DNA of 64,000 nt. It comes from Enchytraeus crypticus. Its lineage: Eukaryota; Annelida; Clitellata; Enchytraeida; Enchytraeidae. The notes under the pieces are model-generated. The model was not told where the DNA came from. It did not search any database and worked only from the letters and a program-made list of their open reading frames with translations. The position numbers were made by a program, and so were the translations under genes. The DNA is taken from the NCBI GenBank assembly GCA_905160935.1, contig CAJHZI010000534.1:341001-405000 (forward strand), read 5' to 3'. Of the stretch, positions 442 to 41,900 are shown in pieces (positions within the stretch are counted from its first letter, which is position 1; every line of letters begins with the position of its first letter).

Positions 442-734
442 TTGGTTGCACCAAGGCTTTGGAAAACGGTGAAATACCAATTAACCGCGTCACTCTGACA
501 CCAAAGGACAAGGGCACGCCAGAAGTTATCCTCCCATCTGGAAAAGGCTGGCCAGTAACCAAGGACGACAAACCATCCGTCACAATTAACTTCGCCTCAC
601 CAGACAACAAGAAACCAGGTCTGCTGGAGAACATCAAGGTCACCGGAAATGTAAAGACTGTCAAGGTCGAGGTCATGAAGATTCGTCCACGTCCAGGTCG
701 TAAGATCCAGCCCGGAGACGAGATGGACCCACAG
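442..734 (+). CDS. Module 1, first exon
   Basis: The acceptor is ...CATTGCAG and the donor is CAG|GTGAGA. The exon enters in phase 1 and leaves in phase 0. It encodes about 97 residues, with GCTK at the start, GKGWPVTKDDKP in the middle and EMDPQ at the end. Confidence 0.85.
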
Positions 735-3700
735 GTGAGATAGGGCTACCTTATGGTGCATTAGTTAGGTTCTGATTTAGGAATAAATAAAAGTTAACAG
801 CTTAGGGATACAAATCGAAAAATATCTAGGATATGTAAGAATGGGTTTAATTACCGTATGTCCTCTCAGTTAATAAACACATCCTAACAAATTACAATTT
901 AACTAATATTTTACAATAAAATTATATAAGAATTAAATTCACATGATTTCCAGTGTTTTGTCTGGGTCACTGAAGAATATATCAAACGTAAACTGAACGT
1001 GTTGGAATGAAACAGGAAACCACATCATAAGTCCTATTATCCGCAAGCTCCAGGCTGAATTAAGGTGTGGTTAAGCATAACCTTTTATGAAGTGATTAAC
1101 CTGTTAATTGATGGAGAATCTGAGTAGCAATATCTACCCTCAACTTGCCATTTGGCAGTACACTACTGTATATTGAAAGTCATAGGATAAATGTATAATT
1201 ATATCATAAATGCATTAATTCGAAGACTAAAGTAAAATCAACTAATTACAATATACCGATCTCAAACCGTTTAGCAAATAATTGTGCAGCTAAGATCCTA
1301 ACTCAATTATTGTTCGGCGGCCTTCGAATAAAATCAACAGTTTACATTTAAAACTCAATTAACTCTTACATCAATAAACACCGTTTCTTGTTCTCTTCCG
1401 ACAGGGATTTAAGAACTACCAGGACGAGTCAATCACCGTAACCGAGGAGCCAATCGAGTTCATCAGCAAGGTGACAAAGAAGCCAGGTCTCGTTGTCTAC
1501 CAGGTCCGCATCACTCCAGTAGAGCCAGTTGATCCCAGCAAGCCATTCGATCTGAAGATCTCTACATGTGGCTGCGTGCAAGGTAGGATTGAATGGGATA
1601 GTTTATTAAAATCAATACTTGTTCTAATCTATTGATAATCTAGTGATAGTTTATTAAAATCAATACTTGTTCTAATCTATTGATTGCTCTCTTTGGAGAA
1701 GAGAAGGATTCTAACTTATTCCTGAAATCATAATAGGCCTACTAATATAAGTAATAATTACAATATATGATCCTAATTATGTTTCGAAATTTCTTTACCT
1801 CTTTGGTTGACAAAATAAAAAACTAATTCATCCTTTGAAAATAATGGTAGGATTAATAAGTTATTAACAACAGCTTCTTACTATTCAAATATGCTTAAAT
1901 ATTATCATATATGCAAATATATACTGTATATATTAAAACATATAGCTTATATATAATTATCCAAATATATAATTCTATACTATTCAAATAAGTCTATCGA
2001 CATGTGTTTCGCAGGATACAATCTCGTCTAATGTGTTGCATTAAAGAAACTAATTATAGTAATAATTCAAATATATAACAGAGGTTCTTTATGATCTGTG
2101 CTTTACAGATAACTCCAAGCCAAAGAAGGAGGAGCCAGAAAGCAGTAAGCATTTTATACTCTGTTTTGACTATTTTTATCGAAATGGCACCGTATAGCTT
2201 AGGGATGGACTAAAGTAAGCTACGTAAATTTGTTTAATTCATATTATGCCTCCATATATTGAACAAATATACTATAATGGAACATCATTTCCTGACAACA
2301 TAATTTTATGTCTTTAAGCGACTCACGAATACATAACCATTAGTTATGCAAAGTCAATTCAATGGGATTTTCTTTGTGACTAAGAAATATATAACTTTTA
2401 CAATAATGTATGACCATAGTAATGTCTACTCAGTTAATAGACATTAGTGCCATTTGACAGAACTTCAGATTGGGGAGCTACTATATCGAATTGGTAAAAA
2501 CTTCTAATAACAGTGTAAATTTGCAGTCGATTCAATTTGTTGCCCTCAACTGTATCATTGAAAAGATTACCCAGTGAATATTATCATTACCATACTGTTG
2601 GAATTTATGAACTATTATTTGGATATTCTGTGAATATTTGTTAGAAGTTTGAAAGTACGTAAAACATTACTAATTATTTTTCGTAGCTGGCTGTACCAAG
2701 GTTATGGAAAACGGTGAACTCCCATTGGACCGCATCACCCTGACTCCAAAGGACAAGGGCACACCGGAAGTCCTCCTCCCATCTGGAAAGGGCTGGCCAG
2801 TAACCAAGGACGACAAACCATCCATCACGCTCAACCTTGCCTCACCAAACAACAAGAAACCAGGTCTGCTGGAGAACATCAAGGTCACCGGAAATGTCAA
2901 GACTGTGAAGGTCGAGGTCATGAAGATTCGTCCACGTCCAGACCGTAAGATCCAGCCCGGAGACGAGTTGGACCCACAGGTCAGTTGGGCAAATCCGTAA
3001 TTTAGTAGCCAGTATATGTAATTTCATATTTTTTAAATAGCTACTGGACATTTCAAATTGAATGTATCAAATTACTAATTTAGTGAATTTCAGTTACTTA
3101 GATTGACTTCTTTTGTATAGTACTATTTATCTTTTGAGAATTTTTGACAAATTCTGTTATAGTTTTTATTGTTCAGAAGTTAGGAAGTTAAATAATATGG
3201 CATGGGTTCAAAATCTAACCATACCGTCAGTTTCTATGAATCACCTTTACTGAGCCCCATTCAATTTAATTTAATTTCAAGAAATCCCATTTGTAGGTAG
3301 TCCGGCTTCAAACTTGAACAGCCTCTGACATGCATACTAAGAAAGCCAATTTAAAAAATTCCAGAAACTCTCAAACGCTAGCTTAAAATATTCCTTTGTT
3401 CCATTCTATCAGGGATTCAAGAATTTAATTAAAACACCGTTTTTTGTTCTCTTCCGACAGGGATTTAAGAACTACCAGGACGAGCCAATCACCGTAACCA
3501 AAGATCCAATCGAGCTCATTAGCAAGGTCAGCAAGAAGCCAGGCGTCCTCGTATACCAGGTCCGCATCACTCCAGTTGAGCCAGTTGATCCCAGCAAGCC
3601 ATTCGACCTCAAGGTCTCAGTCCGTGCCTGCATCCAAGGTAGGCTTATTCGCTTTGTCTGACAAGTTTGAGTTTGCTTAACGAAATATGTATAGGTTATA

Positions 3701-6700
3701 GGCTACATTTTCGCTCTCATAGTGAACTGCCTACTGCAGGTCCATGATATAACGTGAAAAGCAGCATGTGATTAAGAATGTGTTCCTTGGACCTGCTGTT
3801 TGGAAGAATACCAAGGAGAGAGAGAGAGATTGAGAGAGAGAAAGAGAGATAGGCGTGTAGGCTTTCTGGGAAAAGTAATTTGTGTTTTTACTCGTATCAC
3901 TAATTAGATATAAAAAATATCTTTCTCATTCAAGTTCGACGAAAGTGATTTCAATGATGTAGCTTTAGAAGAATTCATGTGTCATCAAGTGTTGCTTAGT
4001 TGATGGTATCTGCCTGAATAAAGAAATACATCATATGTCTTCATTTAATATGCACATATACTACAGAAACCTTTAGGATATTTAATGCAGGCGTGTATTG
4101 TTGTCAATAGTAGGCCTAATTATAGTCAGTAACTAAAATTATACCAATTTTTATTTGTTTGATATTAAAAATGAAATATATATTTTTTGATTGAATTAGG
4201 GACTACCATAACAGTTAAGATTTCACATTTCTCCTCATGTGTTCCCATTTCTGGATATTTTAGCCCTACCTAGTTGTTTTAGACTATTTTTCTATCTTGC
4301 CCGGTCCTTTTGGAATTGGCAAAATTGATTGCTGTGTAATAGAACTATGATTGATGCCACTAGTTCGGACGAATGGAACGTTAAATGTTCACTTTATTGT
4401 ATTGTTTGATAAGAACATTTCATAGCATCACTCGAATAATCTCTAATTGTTGTTTACAGATAAGAACCCAACCAAGGACACCACTTCTCCAAGCCATCCA
4501 CATAAACCAAAGACTGAGAGACGCCCAGATGCTCCACACAAGCCACACACACCTGAGGAATCAGAGAGTAAGCATTCTAGATTTCTCTTTTTCACTTTGA
4601 CCAATTTTAGGTGTAAAGAAATTTAGAATTTACTATAATAGTCATGAAATAGCCTTTCAAAGGCCAAGCTTTTCAACGAACTTGCTTTAAAATCTCTTGC
4701 GAAACATTCTCCGTTACAATTATTATTTTGTATAATTTTCGGTAGAAGTACGGTAAATGTATTCAATATCATTGAATAACTGCCGATTTGCAAATTGTGT
4801 ACACTTTTAATTTTGAAAAATCAAAATCTCAATGAGAAATTCAGTGAGAAGTCAGTGATAAATTCTATAAATACATCATTTCTGAATTTTCTTAAATTAA
4901 ACTGTATAGGGTATACTGTTTACTACTTTTAAATATTAAAACAAATATTTTAATCATATAACAATCTGCTCTAATCAAGCATAAATAACAATGAATTGTT
5001 ACATTTCGATATCGCTAACGATTTCACCCTGCAATGTTCTGCCTGCCTTTCGACACAATGCTATATATCTATTTAATCTATTATGGAATTTTGTTATGCA
5101 ACCTGAAATTGCAAATCCATTTAAAGTAATTGGTAATTGTTGCCAATGCAGTTGGCTGCACCAAGGTTATGGAAAACGGTGAACTCCCAATTAACCGCGT
5201 CACCCTGACTCCAAAGGACAAGGGAACACCCGAAGTCCTCCTCCCATCTGGAAAGGGCTGGCCAGTAACCAAGGACGACAAACCATCCATCACGCTCAAC
5301 CTTGCCTCACCAAACAACAAGAAACCAGGTCTGCTGGAGAACATCAAGGTCACCGGAAATGTCAAGACTGTGAAGGTCGAGGTCATGAAGATTCGTCCAC
5401 GTCCAGACCGCAAGATCCAGCCCGGAGACGAGATGGACCCACAGGTTTGGAAGATTTCAATTTACTTTCATCGGCTGATGACCGAGTTGTAACATAATGA
5501 GTTGCTGCTGCCAAACCCTACCAATACTCTTCTCAGCTAAATACACCGTTTTGTCTTCACTTCTATAAGGCATTTAAAGATTATGACTTTCGTATTGCTT
5601 GTTTGTTCATCTGACTATATTGTATGTACGTTCCTATTGTTCGAATTATCTGAGATAACAAATAAACGATATGAAACAGAAAGGACTACCATAGCGAATT
5701 GTCTTCTCTTCTAAAAACACCCTTTTTGTGGATTTACCATCAAAGTCATAAGCTCTACGGATTCACTTCAAGACATCGAACCCGTTCATCGACTTTTTTG
5801 ACCAAATGACCGACCTACCAAATCAGCAGTTTGACTTGACGGCATGATGATCCAGTTGTCAATGAGAAATACACGTCAAACATATTCAAGTGTCAAAGTT
5901 ACACTAGACAGGATATATAGATGCATACCTATTATCATTAATTTTCTTTATTTTGAATTTCTTTATTTCAATTCTTTAATTTCCACTTTTTATTTTTCGT
6001 TTTAAGTTCACCATGGTTCACTTTTAAATTGTGCTCACTTATTGCATTTACTTGATTGTTTGCATTGCTTGTGAACTGTACGGGGTTGAATGACCCTTTT
6101 TGGTGATCTAACTAAATAAATAAATAGATCAGAGTTTTATCAAAGCTAATTATCAATAATAAAGATTAAAAACACCGTTTTCATTCTCTTCTGACAGGGA
6201 TTTAAGAACTACCAGGACGAGCCAATCACCGTAACCGAGGAGCCAATCGAGTTCATCAGCAAGGTGACAAAGAAGCCAGGTCTCGTTGTCTACCAGGTCC
6301 GCATCACTCCAGTAGAGCCAGTTGATCCCAGCAAGCCATTCGATCTGAAGGTCTCAGTCCGTGCCTGCATCCAAGGTAAGACTTACAGATCCATTCGTAT
6401 GAGTTAAATATTAGAATGTTCACTCTCGGAAAAATTTCATTTTTTCGTGTTCATTTTATACTTTTTCTTATTAAAGTTTTAATAATAATAAGAAATAAAT
6501 AATTCCCTCCCTCTTAGTGCAATTCCTACTGGCAGGTCCATGGTATGTAACGCCTATATGGTATATAATTTAAAAGTTATTTAATGAAAAGTCTTAGCAG
6601 TATTCTGCGAAAGGCCTGATTTAAATTTTAGATGGAATTTTATGGATCTTTATAAGATTTTAGATGGAAATGATAACATAAAGGTATCCTAATGATTTTC

Positions 6701-9700
6701 TCAGATGATTAATTTTTAAATGTTTCCAAATAACGACTACTTGTTCTTGGAAAGGAATCGGTTTCGCTTTTTACTTAATCCATATCGATGTCATTCGTAG
6801 GGGTAACGTCATGAAGTTTTAAATGACTGATCCTGAGGTGAATTGAACCCTCGTTGGTTCGAATCCCAGCCGCGCTGATCTGAGAGTAAAATCTCGGATA
6901 TTTACTGGACTGGCTATACAGAAATGGTCTATAAATTGCCTAACGGTTTAAATATGTGGTATTAAAAAGTGGTAGATATCAACATAGTTGATCATTTCAC
7001 TATAATGCGTGTTTACTTTTTTAGAATCGGCCGTCTCATTATACAAGTTTAGGCAATTCATATTTAAGATTCGGTAGACAATCTACTATGGCTGAAATTA
7101 TTTTGCTGTAATTATTTCACTAGCTGTACTTATTAATTTAAGTGGCTGTAATTATAAGTTCAATGGCTGTAAGTATCAATTTCTGTGACTATTTAATTAA
7201 CTTAATAGTTGTCATCTTTGTCATAATGTAAATATAATTGTGATTAAATAGTTACATCACATTGTATATTTTACAGATGATTCTAAACCAACACACCACG
7301 TTCCAGAGAAACTGCCAGAAAGCAGTAAGCACAACTTGTTTATTATTCTTAAATTTTAATTTACCTGTATTGATTCAGGACATAATATCGACAAACTACT
7401 TAAAGCCTCGATATATTGTAATTAAAGATAAGTATTAAACGCTAAGTAACGGAAGGAGAATTAAACATCGTCGAATAATGTGGGAATTTTTAAGTAAATT
7501 TTTCTATCAGAAATTGATCCCCTGTCTGTGGATTCTCTGATATTGGTTTTTCTCTGGGAATCTAATTGAAATTTTGCTATTCAATGTTTTGGTAAAAACG
7601 TATTTGCAATTTCAGACATCTGTAGACTTTACTCTATTTGATAGAATAAAAGTACTTTTCCATTATTTTCAAATATAATTAATGAAATACTTCATGCTAA
7701 ATAAATAACAATAAAGCACCCTCTATTTATCCTGTGCTATCAGACGGCTGCGTTGATGTAATGGACGACCCTGATGAGCTCCCAGACAAACAGATCACCC
7801 TAACTCCTGCCGACAAGGGCACACCGACCGTGATCCGCCCTGACGGCAAGGGCTGGCCCGTCACCCCCGAAGACAAGCCCGTTATCCACGTCAACCTCGC
7901 CTCCCCAGACAACAGAAAGCCCGGTCTTCTGCGCAAGATCAAGGTTCTCGGCAACGTTGAGGACGTCCTCGTCAGATTCAGGACCATCCGCCCACGTAAG
8001 GACCGCAAGATCGAGACCACTGACAAGATTGACCCCCAGGGATTCCAGGATTACAACGAAGGTATGGAACTTATGGAAGTCTGTTTCTCTCAAGGTCTAG
8101 AAGGTCGATGAGTTTGTTATATATGTAATTCAGTTTGATTTAAAGAGTTCTTTCCATTTGTGAATTTCGATGTTGAGCTATTTACCCGAAATAAACTGGT
8201 AATTAATTAGTAGATATATAACTCGCTAAAGATATCAAAAAATAAATGTAAAAATGTGTATTCGTAATAAATTAGACTGTCATAACAGCGCAGTGGTTAT
8301 AAGCATCAGGTAACGTCTTGAAATTTTAAATGACAGCTCCTGAAGTGAATTGAACTCTCGTGGGTTCGATTCTCGGCCGCGCTAAGCTGAAAGTAAAATC
8401 TCGGACATTCACATGACTGATAACTCGGAAAATGGACTAAGACGTCTAAGGTTTAAAAATGTGCTATTAAAAGTGATAGACACCAGCATAGCTGGTCATT
8501 TCACTATAATGCGTGTAAATAAAAAGTAATTAATAAACTCAGAATTCAAGGAAATGATGATGATGATCAGTAAATAAACTAGTAAATATAAATATAAACG
8601 AATTTCAAATCTATTTCAGGTAAACCAGTCAAGGTAGACAAGACGGGTGTAGTTTTTCTCGATCCAGTCAGCCAGAAGCCAGGAAGAATGGTTTACGACG
8701 TCGAGGTCACTCTCGTCAAGCCAGTCGATCCTAAGAAGCCTTTCGACGCCAAACTCAAAGTCTACGCCTGCATTCAGAGTACGTTTTAGATGTCGTTCAA
8801 TTGGTGGTATTCGGAGGGAGAGAGAGAGAGAGGGAAATATGATAGTATTAGTAGGGAGAGAGAGAGAGAAAAATCTGATAGTATTGGTAGGGAGAGAGAA
8901 AGAGAGAGAAAGACAAAAAGAAAGTTTATATTACAAGCCACTTTAATAATACGTACTAGTTAATTGAAGACAACTATCTTTAGTTATCGAGGCGTATTTT
9001 AAGAAACATAGTGCATATGCACAATCGAGCTAAAATACAGATTTTCTATTGATGGTGTTCTAAGGAGGCATGCATTGGGATACCAGTTAATATTTAATGG
9101 ATCGTACAATTCTCTACACTTTATACTTATTAATTAACGTAAATTAATAAATAAATGTGTTAATTCATTCTATTGTTTTATTACAGATGATATCGAAATC
9201 ATCACCAAGAACGACCTGCAAGAACTGATCGCTTACATTAAAGGTAATTGATGATGTCTTTCAACTAATTAATAAATTATTTAAAATAAGTTCAAATAAC
9301 TGGATAGATATAACTAGGATTTCACAACAATTACACTAAGTATTGATGTAATGATTTAAAATTTTAAAAGTCTTATTGAAGTTATAAAAATATATTGGTG
9401 CAAGTTTCTTAAGGACAAAATCAAAATCGTTAAATTGACATTAAATCGTTAAATTGACCGACATCGCCATAGGCTGGAGACAGTGGCGATTTCAGTAAGA
9501 TATTCATTCGATCGCGGATCGGTATGCGCGGGGTTCAAAATCCTGGACTCTTCCGTCACTGATATCTCTTTCGAGTGAGGAAACTGACGTTAATATTTGC
9601 TTTTTTAGCTTATTAAATCAGACTTCTAAAATATACCTGTCGCCCAATCCAAAAGATATAAAACTGAAAGAAAAATATATATTTTCCAAATTCTATAGGA

Positions 9701-9912
9701 ATAATCTTTCAATGCTATGAATAGGCTAAATAAACTGGTCTTAAATCAAGACTTGAGCTTTAAATATGTCTCCAACTCTGTCGCCCAATCCTATATGTTA
9801 GAAATTAAATTACATATAAATATTTCTATGCTGTATTTTTTACAACCCGCATTGCTATTGTTATATTGCAGCCGAGAAGCTTGCTACACCAGTGAAGGTC
9901 GAACAAGCCTGA
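442..9912 (+). CDS. Tandem-module secreted-like protein gene, 3' part (13 coding exons seen)
   Basis: I do not recognise this family. The coding exons join as 442-734, 1405-1582, 2109-2144, 2687-2979, 3461-3638, 4460-4567, 5152-5444, 6198-6375, 7277-7324, 7744-8061, 8620-8778, 9187-9243 and 9872-9912, about 726 residues, all with GT-AG borders and agreeing phases. The protein is four repeats of a module of about 157 residues. Each module starts with a Gly-Cys pair, has an ITLTP-like strand, a GKGWPVT turn, a KPGLL segment and IRPR, and ends in ACIQ or CGCVQ. Alternating hydrophobic residues suggest a beta-sandwich closed by one disulfide, so an extracellular protein is plausible. Linkers rich in Pro, Lys, Glu and His separate the modules. 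The first exon enters in phase 1, so the start codon and any signal peptide lie upstream of the window. Codons are strongly biased to C/G-ending forms compared with the AT-rich surroundings, which suggests high expression. Resemblance to short cysteine-bounded domains of invertebrate mucin-like proteins is only a guess. Confidence 0.8.
1010..1165 (+). repeat. Partial copy of repeat family D
   Basis: It shares with the copies at 42205 and 43608 the order: GGAAACCA..., a tract resembling AACCTTTTATGAAG, a GATTAACCTGTTAATTGAT segment, and a CTTGCCATTTGGCAGTACAC end. It is diverged and lies in an intron of the module gene. Confidence 0.55.
1405..1582 (+). CDS. Module 1, second exon
   Basis: The acceptor is CTTCCGACAG and the donor is AAG|GTAGGA. 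Phase is 0 in and 1 out. It encodes GFKNYQDE... to CGCVQ. This copy has an extra Cys (STCGCVQ) where modules 2 and 3 have VRACIQ. Confidence 0.85.
2109..2144 (+). CDS. Linker exon 1 (Lys/Glu/Pro)
   Basis: A 36-base exon, phase 1 in and 1 out, between TTTACAG and GTAAGC. It encodes DNSKPKKEEPES. It lines up with the linkers at 4460 and 7277 by phase, by the opening D-N/K/D and by the closing PES/SES. Confidence 0.75.
2687..2979 (+). CDS. Module 2, first exon
   Basis: The acceptor is TTTCGTAG and the donor is CAG|GTCAGT. Phase is 1 in and 0 out. It is nearly identical in DNA to the exons at 442 and 5152. It differs mainly in the LDRITLTP segment and in ELDPQ. Confidence 0.85.
3461..3638 (+). 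CDS. Module 2, second exon
   Basis: The acceptor is CTTCCGACAG and the donor is AAG|GTAGGC, phase 0 in and 1 out. It ends in the codons for VRACIQ. Its middle (KDPIELISKVSKKPGVLVYQ) is the most divergent stretch among modules 1-3. Confidence 0.85.
4460..4567 (+). CDS. Linker exon 2 (Pro/His/Lys/Thr-rich)
   Basis: A 108-base exon, phase 1 in and 1 out. It encodes a 36-residue linker with four His-Pro, Pro-His or His-Lys pairs. It is three times the length of linker 1 and has the same phase and the same SE-type end, so it is an expanded version. Confidence 0.75.
5152..5444 (+). CDS. Module 3, first exon
   Basis: The acceptor is CCAATGCAG and the donor is CAG|GTTTGG, phase 1 in and 0 out. The DNA is almost the same as the exon at 2687, except for the codons of INRV near the start and EMDPQ at the end. 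Confidence 0.85.
5541..5590 (+). pseudogene. Relic of a module second-exon 5' edge
   Basis: A TACACCGTTTTGTCTTCAC tract followed by CTATAAGGCATTTAAAGATT resembles the true acceptor and start of the exon at 6198 (AACACCGTTTTC..., CTGACAGGGATTTAAGAACT). The acceptor AG is altered and the frame is lost. It looks like a decayed duplicate inside the intron. Confidence 0.45.
6198..6375 (+). CDS. Module 3, second exon
   Basis: The acceptor is TTCTGACAG and the donor is AAG|GTAAGA, phase 0 in and 1 out. The front half equals module 1 (TEEPIEFISKVTKKPG) and the end equals module 2 (VSVRACIQ). This mosaic is what gene conversion between repeats would leave. Confidence 0.85.
6805..7022 (+). repeat. SINE family E (tRNA-like head)
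   Basis: The head holds GGTTCGAATCCCAGCCGCGC, a good match to a tRNA B box. It is followed by a body ending in GATCATTTCACTATAATGCG. Other copies are at 8280 (plus), 44028 (minus) and 59485 (minus). Confidence 0.75.
7277..7324 (+). CDS. Linker exon 3
   Basis: A 48-base exon, phase 1 in and 1 out, between TTTACAG and GTAAGC. It encodes DDSKPTHHVPEKLPES and joins module 3 to the divergent module 4. Confidence 0.75.
7744..8061 (+). CDS. Module 4 (divergent), first exon
   Basis: The acceptor is GCTATCAG and the donor is AAG|GTATGG, phase 1 in and 1 out. It encodes NGCVDVMDDPDELP... and keeps the module landmarks (ITLTP, GKGWPVT, LASPDN, KPGLL, IRPR). Unlike modules 1-3 it carries GFQDYNE at its 3' end, so the internal intron lies about eight residues further on and in a different phase. 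Confidence 0.85.
8280..8530 (+). repeat. SINE family E copy
   Basis: An A-box-like GCAGTGGTTATAAGC is followed by a B box GGTTCGATTCTCGG, then the family body ending in TTTCACTATAATGCG. Same orientation as the copy at 6805. Confidence 0.75.
8620..8778 (+). CDS. Module 4, second exon
   Basis: The acceptor is CTATTTCAG and the donor is AGA|GTACGT, phase 1 in and 1 out. It encodes GKPVKVDK... to KVYACIQ, with PVDPKKPFD matching PVDPSKPFD of modules 1-3. Confidence 0.85.
8817..8912 (+). repeat. (GA)n microsatellite with a duplicated flank
   Basis: Three GAGAGA tracts are separated by copies of a TGATAGTATTRGTAGGGAG spacer, so both the tract and its flank were duplicated. It lies just after the module 4 donor. 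Confidence 0.8.
9187..9243 (+). CDS. C-terminal tail exon 1
   Basis: The acceptor is TTATTACAG and the donor is AAG|GTAATT, phase 1 in and 1 out. It encodes about 19 residues, NDIEIITKNDLQELIAYIK, outside the module fold and probably a short helix. Confidence 0.75.
9472..9600 (+). repeat. SINE family A copy
   Basis: GGCTGGAGACAGTGGCGATT... is followed by GGGGTTCAAAATCC and TTTCGAGTGAGGAAACTGAC. The order matches the copies at 16858 and 54915. Confidence 0.75.
9872..9912 (+). CDS. C-terminal tail exon 2 with stop
   Basis: The acceptor is TATTGCAG. It encodes AEKLATPVKVEQA then TGA at 9910-9912. Phase 1 agrees with the exon at 9187. Confidence 0.7.
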
Positions 9913-15819: not shown

Positions 15820-18800
15820 GTAAGTCTGATGTAAGTTTCCCAGTGTGCTCCAGTATGAAATGATTATAGAATTCTTTACAGGAATTATGTTTTTTTTGTA
15901 AAAAATTATTACATCAATTCAGGTTATTACTTGTTAATTATAGTCATCATCATCATCCACCCTTGAATCCCAGTTTAATCAAGGTCGGGATGAAATAGAC
16001 TGTCTCAAATCCTCTCTTATTAATTATAAATTATAGTAATAATTACAATTTATTATAATTATTTCTAATTAGTGTTATCGTCATACAGGATTATTTTTCT
16101 TTACATGATGATATTGATAGTAGTTAGCCAGTCATAATTGAAAAATAATAATTTACTACTCTACCTGTTAAATTTGATTAAGTATTCAATCTTTAAGTAT
16201 TCAATCTTTAAGTATTCAATCTTTAAGTATTCAATCTTTAAGTATTCAATCTTTAAGTATTCAATCTTTAAGTATTCAATCTTTAAGTATTCAATCTTTA
16301 AGTATTCAATCTTTAAGTATTCAATCTTTAAGTAGTCAATCTTTAAGTATTCAATCTTTAAGTATTCAATCTTTAAGTATTCAATCTTTAAGTATTCAAT
16401 CTTTAAGTATTCAATCTTTAAGTATTCAATCTTTAAGTATTCAATCTTTAAGTATTCAATCTTTAAGTATTCAATGCTTTAAGAAGCATATTCAGTTTCA
16501 CAGGGGCTTGATTTTTCAGATGCTAACATTACTTAACTTAACTTAACTTAACATAATTATGCTGGTTAAGGAGGTCACAAAGACCTGTAACACCAGTATA
16601 ATGAGACTATAATGTATAATGTAACACAAATGTATACAATGATTTCTAAATTTACATTATATGTAAATTTAGAAATCACCTATGAATCACAGTTCGACTT
16701 ATTATCTACTTCTGTACTCTCTCTAGATATTTAAAGATAACTATGTGTCAAATGAGGAAGTTATTAGAATTTTAAACATCAAAATATTTGAGTGATAGCC
16801 TATCATAAAATACCTTCTATCACTTTTCTATTTTTTATTTATGTAGTCATATAGACCGGCTGGAGCCAGTGGGGAAGTCGGTAAGATACTCGACCGCGAA
16901 TCAGTATGTGCGGGGTTCAAATCCTGGGCTCGCCCGTCACTGACATCGCTTTCGAGTGAGGAAACTGACGTTAACCTTAGATTTAGCTTTAAATACATCT
17001 TTTTTTAATTTTTATAGATAACTACGGACATATAATCTTCGCTAGTTTACACAGAACATTGACTTAATAATTTATGGCTCATTCTCTATTTACAGATAAA
17101 TGTTAAAGGAGAGAGTCACCAGCTGACGGTTAGAGTGGAATTGGGGGAGAAGCTGCTCGGAGAGTCTGATAAGATTGAGATTGCTCCCAGTGGAGAGGGA
17201 GAAGGGACAGAGGGAGGGGAGGAGGGAGGGAGGACACCTGGTGACAAGAGCGAGGTTGACGTTCACTATCTGGTGACGATACCCGTCAATGTGGAGGACC
17301 CACTAGTGCTGGACGAGCTAGCGTCACGTCCAGTGCTAGGTAGTAACTTGTATTTTTTCTAATCTCTATGGCGTCTATTTGTGGATACTAGTCTCTTACA
17401 ACCTTCCTCCTCCACCAATCACGATCCATGGCGAGATCATACATATCACCACCTGCAAGACTAAATTTAGTATCTATTAAACTTAAATCTTTATTATATT
17501 GTCATAATCAATTATGCTTATTTCCCATACCAATCCTTCATTTATTACTTTTTAATCTAAGTTTAAGAGCTTTCCTTATTGATGTGTTTTCGGGTAATCT
17601 TATCATATGTCCTATCCAACTTATCCTTTTTCCTTATGATTTCACTCCAAGAGTTTCTGTAGTCCTTTCATATATAGTACCTTGTATATCTACATATATA
17701 TGCAAATATGCAACAGCAGCTATAATGCAAAGTAAATCAGCATAAAAAATCTCTGCAACAAGCTACATGGAGATAAGCTAGTGGAATCGATAAATTACCA
17801 CACATTTCAAGTAGGCCTGATATATTTTTGGAAAATTACAAATAATAGCACCAAACTAAGAAAATAACGAAGGTATTTTGTAAGTCATAGAGTTAGAAGT
17901 AGAGCATTGACTTCCCACTTTGAGTACCGGAGAATATTTCAATATTTCAAAATGTTTATAAATATAGTGAGCGCGCGACAGTACGCGCAATTATGTAGCT
18001 TGCTAAACCGTACTTTTGTCTTGACTCTATTCAATGTACCGGGGCTAAATTCACGCTCTCTCCTCAGAGTCAGCATCCATTTGTAGAACTATATCATTAA
18101 TCAAGTTTTACTAGGTAGAACTGTATCATTGTTGATCCATGTTGTACTAGATAGGACTGCATATTTATTCATGTTGTACTAAATGGGACTCTATCTTTAT
18201 GTTGTATTTGATAGGACTGCACCTTGATTCATGTTGTATTAGATAGGACTGCATCTTCATTTTGTACTAGATAGGCATCATTTTTCATGTTGTACTAGAT
18301 AGATCTGTATCATTATTCATGCTGTGCTAAATAGGACTGTATCATTATTCATGTTGTACTAAATAGAACTTAATTCATGTTTTACAAGATAAGACTGCAT
18401 CTTTAATCAGTTGTACCAAGTAGGGCAGCATCATTATCCTTGCTTGAATAGATACGATTTCATCTCTATTCATGTTTTACTAAGCAGGACAGCTTCACTA
18501 ATCATGTAATACTAAGTAATACTGCATAATGCTTAGTTGTTACTGCATTATTATATAATATCATAATTATCAATAAAATTAATACAATTCATACTAAATA
18601 CAATCAGGATATGGTAGTTGTTTTACAGCACATTTATATACCAAATTTATTTATTTATTTATTAGCTTAAGATTAATCTGAAGCTAGTACATAAATAAAT
18701 TAATAAATAATTAAGTAATTCATTCATTGTTAATTATTAATAGTAAATTAACAAAATGTTATAAAGCAATTACCATATCCCAATTTTATTTTTTATAATG

Positions 18801-21202
18801 CAAATATTTATTTCATACTAACTTTGCTGTTGTTTCAGTCACAGTGTCTGATTCCCAGCAGAAGAAGGACAAGTCAGCTAAAGGAGAAGAGAAGGGCAGG
18901 GGTGATGAGAAATCTAGACAAGATGATAGAGGCTCTGCCATTGGGCAGTGTAGTGTAGATCTCCTGCCTACACTTAGAGGCATGTGGGATCAATCAATCA
19001 ATCAAGAAGTCACTCAGTCAATTAACTCACTTCTCAAGAAATACATCAACCAACCGATCAATCAATATATCTAATTTTTAGTTATTATTATAATTATTGT
19101 TAATATTGTCATTGTAATTATTATTATTATTATTATGATGATGATGATTATTATTGTTATTATTAATATTGTTATTATTATTTTTATTATTTTTGATTTA
19201 CTTTTATCAGCAAAAACTTATCTAGCATTATCATCGAGACTAATTTACTTGATAAAACCAAATACAAATAGAGGTACTCTATATATGTACAGTCTTGTGC
19301 AGAATGGATGCATCACTTTAGAAAATTAGCTATTTTTACATATATATTACCAAGTTACATCTAAATTATTATTTCAAGCACTTAATATAAATGTCATTTG
19401 ATTATCTATCATTCCTACATATTATCATTTGAAACACTTGTTGCTGAGTCATGTGTAGGGTTTTTAAATCGTATGGTAACACAGATGGGTGTTTTCACAG
19501 CCTTTTTACATTTCAAATGGGCGCCAAATCAGGTTTATTTTTTGAATTTTTAAAAAAATTTTTGGCTTTTAACAATCATAAATTTTACTAAGAAATGATT
19601 TATAATATATTCTAATCATATTTAATTAGTATTTTTCAAATCTTTAATGTGTTAAATGACTAATAATTAATGTTGCTAAATCACCTACCAATCGATTGAT
19701 TTTATATTGTCTGCAGCTGTACTCACCATTTCTATCATTCTCTTATACTCAAATGAAATGTTATTTCACTTATTTGTATGTCTTTGACTAAAAGAAGTCT
19801 TATTTGATTGTAGATCACGTATAAGCAAGCATGCCGGGCACATCAATATTACTAACAACTCACTCTCTAATTGGGCTACTGCATGAAAATGGGCATTCCA
19901 GTAGACAAATTTTGACAAGATTAGGACTGGTTCAATCCATAGTAATCAGATCACTGAAAATGCAAAGGAAAACCAATCAGTTTTGCATCAAGAAGCCAAA
20001 AGGATGACCAAGAGCAACATCCAAACGACTTGACGACTCCATAGTTCGCGATGCCAAACGCTCGCTCAAGAAATCTTCAGAAGCAATCAGGATTAGTCTC
20101 ACAAATTATAATCCCAGCTCTTCTACAGTCAGGCGACGTCTAATAGAGGGCGGGTTAAGGTCCTATAAGCCAGCTTTGAAACCTTCTCTTTCCAAAAATA
20201 AATCACAGACCGCCTGGCATTTTGTAATAAGTACAAAGACTGGAAAGTTAATGAATAGCGCAAACTCATGTTCAGGGATTTATTGAATTGATTGAATTTG
20301 AGTGAGTTATTGAAAACTGATTGGTTTTCTGTTGCATTTTCAGTGATCTGATTACTGTGGATTGAACCAGTCCTAATCTTGTCGAAATTTGTCTACTGGA
20401 ATGTCCATTTTCATGCAGTAGCCTAATTTGAGAGTGAGTTGTTAGCAATATTCAAGTGCCAGGCATGCTTGCTTATACGTGATCTACAATCAAATAAGGC
20501 TTCTTTTTGTCAAAAAATACAAATAAGTGAAATAACATTTCATTTGAGTATAAGAGAATGATAGAAATGGTGAGTACAGCTGCAGACAATATAAAATCAA
20601 TCGATTGGTAGGTGATTTAGCAACATTAAATATTAGTCATTTAACACATTAAAGATTTGAAAAATACTAATTAAATATGATTAGAATATATTATAAATCA
20701 TTTCTTAGTAAAATTTATGATAGTTTAAAGCCGGAAAATTAAAAACAATTTCAAAAACGAAACCTGATTTGGCGCCCATTTGAAATGTAAAAAGGCTGTA
20801 AAAACACCTATCTGTGTTACTAAACGATTTAAAAACCTACACATGACTCAGCAAAAAGTGTTTCAAAGGATAATAATATTATGTAGGAATGATAGATAAT
20901 CAGAAAAAATTTGTATTAAGTGCTTGAGATAATAATTTAGATGTAACTTGGTAATATATATGTAAAAACAGCTAATTTTCTAAAGTGATGCATCCATTCT
21001 GCACAAGACTGTATATGTATTTGTCTTATCTCTTCTGTATGTATATTCTTATATAGCATATAAGCCATCTATGCAGATATCCATATATAATATATATATA
21101 TATATATATTATATATATTATATATATATATATAGATTTATATATATATATACATATATACTCTATATATTATATTTTATATATTTATATGTAGTGTATA
21201 TA

Positions 21203-26315: not shown

Positions 26316-29300
26316 GGTGCCACTAAGTGTAATGGCAAAAAAAAGAATTCAATATTTCCCAAGTGTCACCCCCTAATTTTGTTCTTTTTGTGATACATAG
26401 TAACTACGCCAAGTTTCATTCAAATATAATAATAAGTACTGGTAGCTCAATGGCCTCAAATATGTTCATGAAAATGCCAATCTCGAAAAACTGTGACTTA
26501 AATAATTTTTATTTATTAAGGTAAGCTAATTATTGAATGGAAGCTCTTACTATGATAAAGCTACCTGAAGACAGAGAATTCCTTCTGGCACAAAGAGAAA
26601 AAGGCAGGCGTGGTTGCATGGGTCCACTCGACATGGTGTTAGCTCGGAAAGAAGAAAGATCTAAGAAAGGGGATCTTTGTAAAAGAAACACGCAAAGCAA
26701 AGGAGAGTGAGCGGCTGAAACAAGTGGCAACTAATATGCTAAGCAACATTAGTGAAGAATCTGGAGACGAGAGTAGCGATGAGAGTAATGAGGACTCGGA
26801 TCGGCATCAGATTCAGTCAACCGAAGCAAATCAGACCCACAAATGTTGTCACACCATGCTTAGCTGCTGCATTAAACAGAACCAAAGTTAGTGACAGGAA
26901 TGCAACATAATTATATTATTGCAGCTGTAGCGGAATCGCTTGGACGCAATCCGTCCACTGTCGCACTAAATAAAGAATCAATTCGAAGAGCCAGACACAG
27001 GCACCGCGCAATAGTAGCCATGCAAAGAGATTCAGGAATCGTTTAGTTCAAACTGTTCATTAACTGTGCATTGGGACGGGACTGTGCATTGGGACGGGAA
27101 AATGTTGCCTGCACTACTTTCAAAGGAGCTCATTGATCGCCTTGCGGTCCTGGTGTCTGGAGATGGAATAATGAAGTTGTTAGGGGTGCCAAAATTGCAA
27201 AACGGCACTGGACAGGCACAGGCAACTGCAGTTTTCAATCTCCTTCAGGAGTGGAATCTCGCTGATCGCATAAAATTCATGTGCTTGGACACTACAGCTA
27301 GCAACACAAGAGTTCACGCGGGGGCCTGCGTACTTCTTGAAGAAAAACTGGGTAGGGATGTGATTGGCTTGCCGTGTAGGCATCACATCATGGAACTAAT
27401 CGTTGCTGAGGTATTTGATGCACTAATGGGACCATCCAGTGGGCCAAATATCAAGTTGTTTCAGAGATTTGGTGAATATTTGGAATCAATTGACAGATCC
27501 AGCTATAACAGTGGACTTGAGGTGGATTTCATTGCATTGACTCTCAGTTCAGTTCGTGGTGATATCATTAGGTTTATTCGGCAACAATTTACCGAGTTTC
27601 AGCCCAGAGACGATTACCGTGAACTTCTGCAGCTATCGCTTTTATTTCTAGGAGCAGAATGTAGCACCGACATACATATTCAAGCTCCCGGAGCTTACCA
27701 CAGAGCGCGATGGATGGCGAAGCTGATTTACAGTCTCAAGATTTTCCTTTTTCACAAACAGTTTCAACTGACTGACCGTTATCTGTCTTCTCACGGCCAC
27801 TTCAATACTTTTATAATGAAAGTTTATCTGAATGTGTGGTTCAAATTCCCATGTGCCTCATCTGCTGCGCAGAATGATCTGGAGCTACTCCATGAATTGG
27901 AAAGTTATATAAGAAAACACATGAAGCAATGGCCAAAGCTGCAATAAAGTCATTCTCTGGTCACTTATGGTACTTAAGTGAAATCCTGGTTGGTTTAGCA
28001 TTCTTTGACTCTGCAGTGTCATTCGAGATAAAGTCTGCCATGGTTACAGCTCTTGACAAAAAAACAACAGCCCATCCTCGAGGAATAGCCTTTCACCCCA
28101 TGTTACATGCCAAGCAGCTGCCTGATTTTGTAACGCATCACACTAGGCAACTTTTCACTGCATTGGATATATCACAAACATTTCTCACCCACAATCCAGA
28201 GACATGGATCTTCAACAAGGATTACGTTGTTGGACAACAGAAGGTAAGAAGTTTGAAAGTAGTCAACGATGCAGCCGAGTGAGGTGTGACCTTGATTCGA
28301 GAGTTTAATGGAATCCTCACAAATCAAGAGGATCAAAAGCAATTTTTGCTCCGAATTGTAGAGAAACACCGCCATGACTTTCCGAAAGCCGAACAAGTCC
28401 TGCTTTACTAAAGTTCGTGCATCTATCTCAGCAGCAACGTCCACATCGGCAAATACACAAAATATGACTTTATAACATCTTCAGGTAGCTGTTTGAGTTA
28501 AATACTGTGAAACAGGTTATATTTACACTACAGCACACGTCTTTTGTATGAATATTGAATAATTAATACTTAGAAGATAATCTAAATTATGAAGTTAAAG
28601 GTAACAAAACACGATAATATACAGGATAAATGTTGATAATATACAGGATAAATGTTGATAATATACAGGATAAATGTTGATAATATACAGGATAAATGTT
28701 GATAATATATAGGATAAATGTTGATAATATACAGGATAAATGTTGATAATATACAGGATAAATGTTGATAATATACAGGATAAATGTTGCGTAAATTGCA
28801 AAACTTTGACGGTGTTGAGCTACCAGTAAATATTATTAGAATACATTCAAATTTGGCAAGCCTCTCTCTTTTTATATTATGAACAAATATGAGGGGTGAG
28901 AGGACGAAAATTGCATAATTTTTTTTTGAGTGGCACCCTAATATATATATATATTAGTAAACTAAGTTTTACGTCTGTTTCCGTATCACAAGGGATGCTG
29001 TAAGAGACGTTAGTTTCTGGAGCCTAGGCTCTCACCAATCGAATGTCCTTTCTAACGTTGGTTTAAATAATAGATTTTTGTCGCCATTGACGACACGTGC
29101 AGTCAACGATTGGCGATTGGTCTATTCAGTAGCAACCCGGACACAACACGGGATACATCATATGTGCAACCAATAGCTATATAGTGTATAAAGTGCAAGT
29201 TACTTTAAGTACATTTAATACTTGTTGCATGTCTGTGTTGTTTGTGAACAGTACAGGGATGTATGACACTTTTGGTATTCTTAATAAAAGTTATTAATTT

Positions 29301-35935: not shown

Positions 35936-38900
35936 AGTCTATATCTTGTGAAAATTTTGGTTTCTGAAGTGGCATACATTTGTTTCCAGACTTTTTACCA
36001 TGTAGTCCTTTTCGACACCTGCAGTTGACGGTTGATCAATTCATCAATTGCCCGGACACAGCATTGGGCTTCACTAAGTATATTCTGCAAGTGTACTTTG
36101 CAGATTTTAACATCCTCACGTCTATCTTCAGACAATTTCTTACCTTCTGGTGTTTGGCCAATATCAATCAGAACTATCCTTATCTGCGCCTTTCGTAGAA
36201 AAAACTAACGGTAATTTAGCTAATATGAACGTTAGTTTTCTCACTCGAAAGCGATGTCAGTAACAGGCGAGACTAGGATTTGAATCCCGCACATACTGAT
36301 CCGCGGTCGGATATCTTACCAACATCGCCAATAGCTACAGCCAGTTAAAAAGGTGACTAAGAAAGAACCGAGGAAGGCAAGGGGGAATATCTCAAAGCTT
36401 GATTCTCGTATGACAAAAACGACATTAATTTTTACGAAAGGCTTATCAATTATGATAGGATCAACTTGTTGGTCAATAGAATGCTCCTACTGAGCGCGTA
36501 GTAGACTTTGAGTAGGCTTTATGTACCTCGGACCTGCCACTTTGAAGAACGCTTAATTGATGAGAAAATGCAAATGCATTTCAAAACATTTAGTAGCAAA
36601 AACGGAAACGTTGTTTGTATAAATACTATGTAGTCTTCTTTATAAAAAAACTATTTGCTAAATGCGTATGTAGTTTCTTAGCAATAGTTGTTATAGTATT
36701 TTAATAGTACTCCTCTATTAGATTTCTTTAACATTTGTTAAAGCTGTAGTTTGGAAGAAATGCGTATCTTAGAATTGCTATTCGCAATAGAATTGCTATT
36801 CGCCCTATATTGAGCTAAACTTCGTAGCGGTTTGGCTAGAATGTGTCTCGTGTTCGTGAACGGAAACATAGTGCTTCTGACGTTTACGTTAAATACGCAC
36901 ACACATTCTCTATTTGTTTTCTCATTCGCTTTTGTATTTCTTTCTATATGCTGCTGTTTCTTATTTGAATCAAAAGAAAAAGAAAGAACCGGAAAAGAAG
37001 AAAAAGCCTGAAAAAGCCTCTAAGTTATGTAGTAGTATAGGCTTTAATTCTTGAGATAAGATTTTGCCTAATCTAATTGTATAACTTGATATTATATTAA
37101 AAATAATCAGTTACTTTCTTTCGTTATTAATTGCATTACTAATTGAAATTATTGTTAAATATTTTTATTTACTAGTTTAAGATATTAATAAGAACTATTA
37201 TTTATAAATTGAAATTATTGTTATTATTTACTTATTGTAATTATTGCTATTTACTATTATTTACTAACTAACAGTAACATTTACTAAATATTATTATTTA
37301 CTAATTGTAATTCTTGATAATTATTATAATTTACTAATTGTATTTATTACTAATAATTAACTAATAGTTTTACTTGGTACTTCCTGTATTACTTGTTTCA
37401 CTAATATAGTACTTAAAGCTTCTGTTGATTACCGAGTTAAAAGCATTTATATTTGTAAACAAGAGCCACTCTTTTCAAATTCTGAGGCAGTAGCTTGTTG
37501 GCAAGTTGTTCGACAATGGATCAGTAGGTGCTGGGTTCAAATCTAGTGCTCTTCCCGTTACTGACATGCTGTCGAGCAGAAAACTGACGTTAAGTTCGAC
37601 TTTAGTTTTAGTTTTAACTTTAACCAACCGGTACATAATGAACAAATATTAGATTTTGGTAAAATTAGCATTTGTTGCTATTGATGTAAATGTAATTGAT
37701 GAAAAAAAAAAAAAAAACTATTTTAATAAAATAATATTTTAATAGAAAATTATTATGTAATATAAAGTAAATAGTATTTCAATAAATATAATGTTACAAT
37801 AATATTTTCTATTTATATGCCTCCTATGAGACACGTTCATTAGGATATTAACTAATATTTAAAATTAGATTGGAAATTAATTTCTGGTACTGATCGTAAT
37901 TTGGTTTATGGAATTGTTATTTGCTGTTAATTTATTTATTTTAGTTCTGCAAACTATTCATTAATGAAAAACATAAGTTCTATCTGGTAAAGTTATAGCA
38001 ATACTTCTGTATAGGTTAATGAGACCTATATGGCATACGGTATTGGCTGAATTTGCTTTTTATTGCGCCCTGCTGTGATTTTTATTTGTTTCTTTTTTAT
38101 AATTTTGTATTCTAGTTTTGTAATAGAATTTTGTGTTTTAATTATTTATTTCCTTTTGAATTTTGTCACAGTTTGTTACGATTTTGTAGCAGATTTTATT
38201 TCCTTACATTCTGTGTGCAGCATTATAAGTAAAAGAAAACGACGATCTATCGGTTTATTTATTGATTAGTTAATTTATTGATTGATTTTAAATTATCCAG
38301 TCTTTAAAGTCTTTGTCTTCCTCACCGCCTTTCTTCCGATTCTGTCCTTAATTCAATCATTAGTAAACCATATCCTCTCAGGAAATGACTCATCCTGAAG
38401 AACTGGATGAATTATTTTCTGAGTGAGGATGGTTTAGTAAAGGAGTTAATTAAAGGAAGCATGCATGGAACAAAAGGTTAGATGAAGATCGAGACTTTGG
38501 ATCCTGGATAATTTGAAATTAATTCTAGATTGATGTAAAGAGAATAGCTGACCATAGAAGTATGTGTAGGAGTTATATGCCATGGACCTGCCAGTAAGGT
38601 AGTGGATTGACAAAGAGTGAGAGAAAACTAGAGAGAGAAAAAAAGCTGGTAAAGCTAATGTTAACGTTAGTTTCCTCACTCGAAAGCGACGTCAGTGACG
38701 GCGAGCCCAGGATTTGAAGCCTGCATATACTGATCGGCGGTCGAGTATCTTACCGACTGGCTGGAGGCAGTGGCGATGTCGATAGGATACTAAAAATAAG
38801 ATAAGTGATACTTATACTAAGTCGGTATGATATTGTAGTATATGTGTACCCCAATATATATCAATATTCGGAATGGGGGAATATTTTGCTGGTATTTCAG

Positions 38901-41900
38901 GCTGGTGGTGCTAAAGACGCTGAGCAAGAGGATGTGCCCGTGAATCCTGAGGGTCAGTTATACGTTGAGGCCAAGTCCTACATCATGATGGAGCTAGTTC
39001 TTGATAGACCACTGGTGGAGAAACGATCTGATGAAGAAAAGATACTCAGGTATATACCATTCCGTCAATTAATTAATCAATCAATCAATTAAGTCATTGG
39101 GTATGTTGAGGCCAAGTCCTACATCATGATAAAGCTGGTAAAGCTAAGGTTAGCGTCAGTTTCCTCACACGAAAGCGATGTCAGTACGGGCGAGCCCAGG
39201 ATTTGAACCCCGCAGATACTGATCCGCGGTCGAGCTAGTGCGATAGACCATTGGTAGAGAAAAGATGTGAAGAAATGATACTCAGGTACATATATGTTAT
39301 CAACTAGACGAGTCAGTTAACTAGATAATAAATTAATCAATTAAGTCGGTTATAATTTGAGAGCAAGTCCTATGATAGGGTGTATTTCATGATGGAGCTA
39401 GGGCTTGATAGACCACTGGTGGAGAAAGAATATGCCGAAGAGATAGTACTGAGGTATATTGCTGCTATTAAAGTAGTCACTTAATTTCCCCGTGTTGTGT
39501 CCGGGTTGTTTGAAGAATAAACCAACCGGTTACATCGTATCGTAGAAGGCGACTAAAGCACTAAGATCCAACCAACGTCAGAAATGGCATTCGGTTAGTG
39601 AACTCCTAGGCTCCAGAAATCGCCACAAAATTTTCTAAAACGAATGGAAGAGATTTTAGTATGGTATGGGAGAAAGCGGAGTAGAGAAGGTCCATTCGTA
39701 TCCCGACCCTAGTTAAAATGGGCTTAAAGGGGAGAAGAAAATGATGATGATGAAAGCAGTCAATTAATTAATCAAACAATCGGTAAAGTCATTCACGCGT
39801 TGAGGCGAAATGTTGCTCCTTGTCGACTCCATAAAATGGACTTAACTAGCATGGTCAAATAATTGGAAGTTATTTTTATTACTGCGTAATAGCCATTACC
39901 CGTATTGTGTCCGGGTTGCTGAAGAATAGGCCAACAGTAAACGTATGTGTCGTAAAATGCGGCGAAACACTAAATTCCAGGCTAACGTTATAAAGAGCAT
40001 TCTGTTGGTGAGCCCCTACGCTACAGCTACTGCTATAAAAGTTTTATAGACCCTATTTAAACTGGGATTCAAGGGAAGTGGATGATGACTGTGTAATAAC
40101 TATTGGGATTTTCATTCGACTTTACCTCGAGCAGTGGATATAGCATTGTTTTATTGTTTAGAGTATCTCAGCTCATTCCACCTCGTCCACTAATTCCTAA
40201 GAGAACCAACACCGCTCAGAAGGTATCTCTTTAGATCTCTCTGTCTCTCTTTCTCTTTCTCTCTCTCTCTTTCTCTCTCTTACTCTCTTTAGATCTGTCT
40301 CTCTCTCTCCCACGCTCTCTCTCGTACTCTGTCTCTCTCTCTCTCTGTCTCTTTCTCTATCTCTTACTCTGACACTGTTTTTAATACTTGATATAATAAT
40401 TTCTATAACAATTACTACCACAGCTATTAGTTGATATAATAATTTCTATAACAATTACTACCACAGCTATTAGTTGATATAATAATTTCTATAACAATTA
40501 CTACCACAGCTATTGGTTGATATAATAATTTCTATAACAATTACTACCACAGCTATTGGTTGATATAATAATTTCTATAACAATTACTACCACAGCTATT
40601 GGTTGATATAATAATTTCTATAACAATTACTACCACAGCTATTAGTTGATATAATAATTTCTATAACAATTACTACCACAGCTATTGGTTGATATAATAA
40701 TTTCTATAACAATTACTACCACAGCTATTGGTTGATATAATAATTTCTATAACAATTACTACCACAGCTATTGGTTGATATAATAATTTCTATAACAATT
40801 ACTACCACAGCTATTGGTTGATATAATAATTTCTATAACAATTACTACCACAGCTATTGGTTGATATAATAATTTCTATAACAATTACTACCACAGCTAT
40901 TGGTTGATATAATAATTTCTATAACAATTACTACCACAGCTATTGGTTGATATAATAATTTCTATAACAATTACTACCACAGCTATTGGTTGATATAATA
41001 ACTATTATAGTAAATCATTGTAAATAAATCACTGAATACAATATTTACTTTCAGTGAATAGTGAGGAAGAAGGGAAGGGACCATAATATTATTAATTAGA
41101 TTAGGACTATTATTATATTAATTAGATTAAGGCTTACACTTCTATCTTTAACTAAATGTTACTTCAGTTTTAGCCTACTTTCTTCTAAGATTTCCTCACT
41201 ACCTTCCTTCGAGGTCAGCATTACTAATTTTGTCTTATTTGCTCTACACGTTGCAGGCTGTGGAGGATTTTCACTACAACGTGGGCAGCATAGCGAGCGC
41301 CCTGCTGCTTGAGATCAGGGACTATCTGGGTTCTGACGGGCTAAGGGCTCTGGCTGACGGCAATTTCGATGAGAGGTACGATGAATGTATTGTGAACTGT
41401 GAACTAATACTATCTTTATTTAGAACTGTAAGTATCATAATTATCACGGTAGTCAGCTAGATAAGATACTCTGTATCTTCACTGACGACCAATTTTTCTC
41501 GCTATTGACGTAGCAATTGCTGTTGAGGCATTGTGTGTCGATCATGCATTTTGTATCTGCTGAATAACAAACATATTATTATCTATCTATTTGAATCAGT
41601 CTGAAAGTTTTAAATTCACTCAGTCGAACGGAAAGATTTCTTAATTCACTCTTTCGTTAATATTTGGATGATTTCATTTTAACGAGATGTACTAGCAATA
41701 AGCGATGCATGGTGTTAAAATAATCAATTAAATACTTATCGACGAGAACTAGCTATATGAACGTAATGATTATAATATCATCACAATCATCATCAGTTGC
41801 TTGCAATATCATCACAATCATCAGTTGCTTGCAATATCATCACAATCATCATCAGTTGCTTGCGATATCATCACAATCATCATCAGTTGCTTGCGTTCTA

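Follow-up and report, generated by a model that had tools for sequence, protein, structure and literature searches.

In a 64,000-nucleotide stretch of the Enchytraeus crypticus genome (assembly GCA_905160935.1, contig CAJHZI010000534.1, positions 341,001 to 405,000; hereafter the window), what appears to be a single mucin-like gene has its 3' end, which carries tandem two-exon modules whose exons are closely alike and whose inner introns are unrelated outside a short patch. Comparative sequence analysis leads us to the view that these exons were very probably homogenised by ectopic gene conversion between homologous exons of one gene. Exon-limited conversion had been proposed in a preliminary description of the window, and it is supported here by silent-site likeness, mosaic tracts, intron divergence and the recurrence of this pattern in another family of modules. 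Coordinates are window positions, with negative values lying upstream on the same contig (C441; C441 position = window position + 341000). We label the window modules 1-4 W1-W4; together with the upstream modules N1-N3 they belong to the A type, whereas B denotes upstream single-exon modules. Matches to the module protein in the 524-Mb genome (802 contigs) number 13, all on this contig and inside 14.3 kb.

Silent-site similarity of the window modules

The first and second exons of modules 1-3 have the borders and lengths originally described (293 bases three times and 178 bases three times), with AG/GT borders and an open frame, and the modules are 85-97% identical. Within the 291 coding bases of the first exon, modules 1 and 2 differ at 29 positions, modules 1 and 3 at 25, and modules 2 and 3 at 9; the corresponding counts for the 177 coding bases of the second exon are 26, 10, and 16. 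The strong likeness first reported is therefore real, although 9-29 differences in 291 bases and 10-26 in 177 make the original wording, a match almost base for base, too strong. Silent divergence (Nei-Gojobori) amounts to 0.29 for modules 1/2, 0.18 for 1/3, and 0.14 for 2/3, and ranges from 0.06 to 0.39 when taken exon by exon.

For 21 module pairs, we determined how often residues conserved between two modules are encoded by identical codons, with independent draws from the codon usage of the array as the expectation (51-55%). Among themselves, modules 1, 2, and 3 reach 86, 91, and 92%, where 54% is expected. W4, whose protein is 52-58% identical to modules 1, 2, and 3, shares 44-61% of such codons with six other modules, while N1 or N2 compared with N3, W1, W2, and W3 (8 pairs), together with the N1/N2 pair, give 45-58%; N3 against W1, W2, and W3 is intermediate (62-66%). 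The silent sites of modules 1-3 are thus more alike than codon use or selection on the protein explains, as is characteristic of concerted evolution by gene conversion.

Divergence of the inner introns

As stated in the preliminary description, the inner introns of modules 1-3 resemble each other for only a few tens of bases next to the exon-2 acceptor: 29-45 bases are in common there, and nothing else rises above shuffles. Other intron pairs that do so reflect simple repeats, 25 bases after the long linker, or a 42-base dispersed repeat with two further window copies. In simulations that mutated the inner introns with indels assumed at 0.15 per substitution, median alignment scores were 428-715 at 0.14 substitutions per site and 152-200 at 0.29. 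The observed scores outside the common patch (21-24) correspond to a level reached at about 0.6 substitutions per site and beyond. The comparison of silent with intron divergence, suggested earlier as a check, therefore sets 0.14-0.29 in the exons against about 0.6 or more (by simulation) in the introns, so that intron divergence is older than exon identity.

Several further features of these introns were recorded. Two stretches drawn from 22 comparisons (5538-5577 and 3395-3423; Table 1) resemble decayed versions of the acceptor and opening bases of exon 2, as if a new copy had superseded an older second exon; a third match at 3897-3951 beat 200/200 shuffles, is AT-rich, and is not trusted. 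The repeat at 5921-6126 in the module-3 intron (roughly 205 bases) has at least 39 other genome copies at 94-97% identity. Another repeat joins the introns of modules 3 and 4 (6802-6912 with 8309-8419 and 6965-7012 with 8469-8516; 85-88% alike), and a short dispersed repeat occurs at 6529-6552, in the intron after module 3, and at 38571-38594 and 56648-56671 (0 in 100 shuffles). An origin of the introns as multi-copy inserted elements was rejected, since intron W2 has no second match in the 524-Mb genome and dispersed repeats cover only part of introns W1 and W3.

Mosaic tracts and the likely unit of homogenisation

Module 3 changes its nearest relative along its length. The second exon of W3 equals module 1 at coding positions 25-152 and module 2 from position 150 to the end (150-176; 0-based), while in the first exon modules 2 and 3 show no difference over 179 bases. 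Using the longest run of concordant variable sites as the statistic (56 variable sites in all, 20 of them silent) and permutations as reference, we found a common run of 16/56 for modules 1/3, a length attained in 0/50,000 permutations, and of 14/56 for modules 2/3 (P 0.0011); modules 1/2 have no common run longer than 1. On silent sites alone, the run for modules 1/3 is 7/20 (P 0.0012). These switches of nearest relative along modules 1-3 are mosaic tracts of the kind that marks gene conversion. Simple unequal crossing-over was discarded as a source of module 3, as its inner intron is unlike those of modules 1 and 2 outside the common patch.

The linker exons between modules, which alternate between long and short (read by eye), bear on the unit that is kept alike. 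The linker after module 2 matches the linker after N3 in 100 of 108 bases, yet the silent divergence of modules W2 and N3 is 0.80. Near-identical linkers between modules this divergent suggest that likeness is maintained exon by exon rather than over whole modules.

Exon-limited and segmental copies in the upstream array

Upstream of the window, threonine-rich exons alternate with single-exon B modules, in which the exon-limited pattern is stronger than in the window modules. We listed C441:211001-341000 for GC-rich (rich in guanine and cytosine) open frames on the plus strand, with the last 10 kb read base by base. A search with one B module returned 46 matches between C441:245657 and 329867 and none on another contig (49 candidates scored). 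Pairs were surveyed among 35 B modules in C441:261001-341000 (595 pairs) and classified by the extent of flank homology, with pairs counted as segmental when at least 300 bases are homologous on both sides. Of these, 37 are at least 80% identical: 17 exon-limited, 12 segmental, and 8 one-sided. Silent differences in about 88 sites number 0-4 in 14 of the 17 exon-limited pairs, which reach at most 73 bases into the flanks, and 9-14 in the other 3. In the 12 segmental pairs, where silent differences number 0-1, about 800 flank bases are kept on both sides, the most that was measured. The B modules at -66963 and -57070 are equal at 372/372 bases, and their homology extends 18 bases upstream of the module and 1 base downstream of it; in several pairs, the common stretch runs 16-73 bases past the module, mostly into intron.

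Self-comparison of the array (blocks of at least 85% identity and at least 100 bases) gave 51 blocks. A block was called confined when it lay within 80 bases of an exon, as checked on the first copy; 24 are confined in this sense to module or linker exons, 4 are longer than 600 bases, 23 fall outside modules, and no module block has any other shape. By coordinates, 9 of the 23 lie in threonine-rich exons, and the remaining 14 are taken as intron repeats, not checked singly. Three four-exon units (threonine-rich exon, B, threonine-rich exon, B) are colinear, with each exon 86-97% alike (two comparisons) and with introns unlike save for tens of bases at the exon edges.

Recent duplications in the same array serve as a control. 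Tandem units of 2.9 kb match at 99.1-99.5% across 2375-2921 bases that take in the introns, which bears out the premise of the preliminary description that a recent segmental duplication keeps introns alike. Four such near-identical units with three B modules each (L015-L016, -69882 to -58751) represent a fresh expansion beside exon-limited copies, and one 2.1-kb copy, 99.86% alike, ends 13 and 56 bases outside B modules.

Probable conversion between exons and its alternatives

Ectopic conversion would account for these patterns as follows. The introns of the modules have diverged beyond recognition, and in the old tandem modules of a giant gene this would leave the exons, kept similar by selection on the protein, as the sole pairing partners. 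Later exchange within the gene, presumably by ectopic conversion and to some extent by unequal exchange among homologous exons, would then be confined to exons: where introns no longer match, only exons can pair, and tracts would end at or near exon edges. Homogenisation of this kind would keep spacer modules alike in a long secreted polymer. Three points weigh against this account. The common run of modules 2/3 on silent sites alone, 5/20, is not significant (P 0.10); variable sites within 30 bases of exon edges are not enriched (24/95 against 21.2 expected, P 0.28), while a rise of divergence toward the ends of a homologous block is expected of conversion without strictly defining it; and the intron simulation depends on the assumed indel rate.

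A bolder possibility, which we regard as unlikely, is that whole exons are copied by a germline process whose ends are set by splice sites (for example, repair from spliced RNA or cDNA), with exons as the units of homogenisation and the modules also forming an undescribed extracellular domain family. Somewhat less probable again is the plainer proposal that a spliced RNA or cDNA template produced tracts ending at splice sites: homology does end within a few bases of splice sites in the most extreme pairs, yet introns still stand between the homogenised exons, and the 16-73-base extensions past the module in several pairs, being mostly intron, fit a DNA template there.

That the modules duplicated recently and then had their introns replaced very fast through insertions and deletions is, in our estimate, very improbable. 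Introns W1 and W3 do contain mobile elements, a dispersed repeat in each, but intron W2 lacks a second genome match, module 3 is a mosaic of two modules, and exon-limited copies occur at zero silent divergence. The upstream survey points the same way, since the 14 exon-limited pairs with 0-4 silent differences extend at most 73 bases, whereas the 12 segmental pairs with 0-1 keep about 800. An assembly artefact, in which consensus polishing made distinct exons look the same, deserves marginally less credence still. The exons are indeed short and repeated, but variable sites are spread throughout the first exons (9 to 29/291), the patch at exon 2 takes in intron bases, and the 372/372 pair is identical right up to the exon edges, at which reads would be anchored by unique introns. 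Strong codon or RNA-level constraint that keeps silent sites alike without exchange between modules, which the preliminary description had offered as its alternative, is rejected as the main cause and has next to no likelihood: third positions are GC-rich (0.60-0.80) in a stretch of about 36% GC overall, yet N1, N2, and W4 carry the same bias and share 44-58% identical codons among themselves and with W1-W3, as independent draws predict and far from the values within modules 1-3.

Comparison with known concerted evolution

We compared the proposed ectopic exon conversion in this gene with described systems. The duplicated amylase genes of Drosophila evolve in concert in their coding sequence only (PMC3924832). 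As there, paralogous coding sequence is homogenised while flanking DNA evolves independently; unlike amylase, where exchange runs between genes of a small cluster, the present case concerns numerous exons within a single gene, each homogenised individually and bordered on both sides by unrelated introns. In the MaSp2 spider silk genes of Argiope, introns iterated within a gene have a mean likeness of 97.6% (94.3-99.7%; PMC9779670). Both are long secreted structural genes with repeated exon units under homogenisation, but the intron pattern is opposite, since introns are homogenised there and unrelated here. Abalone VERL (PMC2704960) is likewise an extracellular protein whose tandem modules evolve in concert; homogenisation covers repeats 3-22, to which repeats 1 and 2 are said to be joined with no introns between. 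In the vitellogenin genes of Culex, conversion tracts take in introns (PMC2875236). Among the titles and abstract openings of one library, we found no described exon-limited homogenisation inside one multi-exon gene. Coding-only concerted evolution is thus known, and the present gene is an extreme, intragenic, exon-by-exon variant of it.

Where conversion is studied between copies of a gene, it is difficult to tell the coding sequence apart from what surrounds it. This gene supplies numerous exon pairs whose order is known; their unrelated introns mark from within where homology ends, and recent duplications stand beside them as a control. It could serve to measure, in an animal, how long the tracts of ectopic conversion are, how much homology they need, and in which direction they run. 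It illustrates, too, that the modules of a giant repetitive protein can stay alike even when the introns do not.

Identity of the gene and nature of the modules

The order and strand of the modules suggest a single gene of at least 105 kb, if all modules belong to it. Its domain content includes threonine/proline-rich segments (threonine-rich open frames between modules, by eye), TIL domains (PF01826; 29.8 and 27.9 bits, cut-off 24.5, with two more stretches below it at 22.6 and 18.2), and an F5/8 type C domain (PF00754; 33.5 bits, cut-off 28.2). VWC (PF00093) stayed under its cut-off of 27.6 (24.7 and 16.9 bits), and no VWD was found in the selected open frames scanned, the 5' end of the gene being outside the located part. 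This content indicates that the protein is probably secreted and mucus- or adhesive-like. Hemolectin/hemocytin/SCO-spondin-like proteins and vertebrate gel-forming mucins with CysD modules form the comparison class. As in these, TIL and F5/8C are present, and threonine-rich segments alternate with small globular modules; unlike in hemolectin-type proteins and CysD mucins, the modules match no named domain, and VWD is absent from the selected frames scanned.

The A and B modules both open and close with cysteine, and may be disulfide-closed globular spacers between threonine-rich, presumably glycosylated stretches. Four scanned A modules had no Pfam match, F5/8C included. Among 18 B members, no Pfam cut-off was reached and F5/8C was not matched, the 17 families listed each coming from 1 member; a comparison of B with the gene's own F5/8C (hhalign) covered 16 columns only (P 0.038). 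PDB searches were not convincing with one A module (best E 0.031) or with the B profile (best E 0.0093), and gave no match with the A profile or with an eighth A module. Against NCBIfam, a GH101 enzyme model aligns at one of its ends with 5/18 B members; the best E is 0.0009, well short of the cut-off, and we regard the link as unproven. The phage, prokaryotic, and viral collections gave no relative. The predicted structure, of the first exons only (alignment A3), has a mean pLDDT (predicted local distance difference test score) of 36, too low for a usable fold. Aligned with each other, A and B give E 0.003 over 91 columns, with a probability of only 9.7% (hhalign). The earlier claim of an undescribed extracellular domain therefore holds insofar as nothing reaches a Pfam or NCBIfam cut-off and no PDB match convinces, although novelty is not proven.

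The A modules comprise N1 (-5496..-4137), N2 (-2924..-2164), N3 (-1358..-391), W1-W4, and an eighth, L012 (around -38063..-37135), which matches the A profile at E 1.5e-10. Their inner intron lies at five different positions (by eye), while each of the 35 B modules is one open frame. Five intron positions in eight homologous modules suggest that introns were gained repeatedly, or lost on a large scale, within one gene. Farther upstream, at about -128150 to -98158 (L017-L020), open frames of another repeated module type have a similar 'ACL' end motif.

Table 1. Features of the module array within the window.
Feature	Position	Strand	Basis and remarks
W1 exon 1	442..734	+	293 bases; open frame, AG/GT borders; tblastn
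Intron patch common to modules 1-3, directly before exon 2	1376..1404	+	Local alignment above 100 shuffles
W1 exon 2	1405..1582	+	178 bases; open frame, AG/GT borders; final ~25 bases differ from modules 2 and 3
Short linker exon 3' of module 1	2109..2144	+	Borders by eye
W2 exon 1	2687..2979	+	293 bases; open frame, AG/GT borders; tblastn
Possible decayed start of an older exon 2 (suggestive), module-2 intron	3395..3423	+	2/200 shuffles as good
W2 exon 2	3461..3638	+	178 bases; open frame, AG/GT borders; tblastn
Long linker exon 3' of module 2	4460..4567	+	100/108 bases equal to the linker after upstream module N3
W3 exon 1	5152..5444	+	293 bases; same as module 2 over 179 bases
Decayed copy of exon-2 acceptor and exon start, module-3 intron	5538..5577	+	0/200 shuffles as good
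Dispersed repeat in module-3 intron	5921..6126	+	Genome search; copies elsewhere 94-97% alike
W3 exon 2	6198..6375	+	178 bases; mosaic of modules 1 and 2
Short linker exon 3' of module 3	7277..7324	+	Borders by eye
W4 exon 1, diverged relative	7744..8061	+	Borders by eye; intron at another position than in modules 1-3
W4 exon 2	8620..8778	+	Borders by eye
Exon 3' of module 4	9187..9243	+	By eye
Probable last exon with stop codon	9872..9912	+	By eye; stop at 9910-9912

Other features of the window

A possible next gene follows downstream on the same strand (about 15751-64000), which we presume to be perhaps CFAP70-like; an open frame within it at 63497 has weak matches to TPR models (E 0.0012, below cut-off). 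A Tc-type transposase remnant lies at 20008-20283 (PF01498, 37 bits, cut-off 31.5). One dispersed repeat has five window copies with at most 3 mismatches (16892-16925, 36275-36308, 39198-39231, 58721-58754, and 60541-60574; 0 in 100 shuffles), and looks tRNA-derived by its box-B-like GGTTCAAATCC. Very regular tandem repeats, with 98-99% matches, occupy 40388-41001 (43-base unit), 16178-16483 (15), and 28613-28789 (22).

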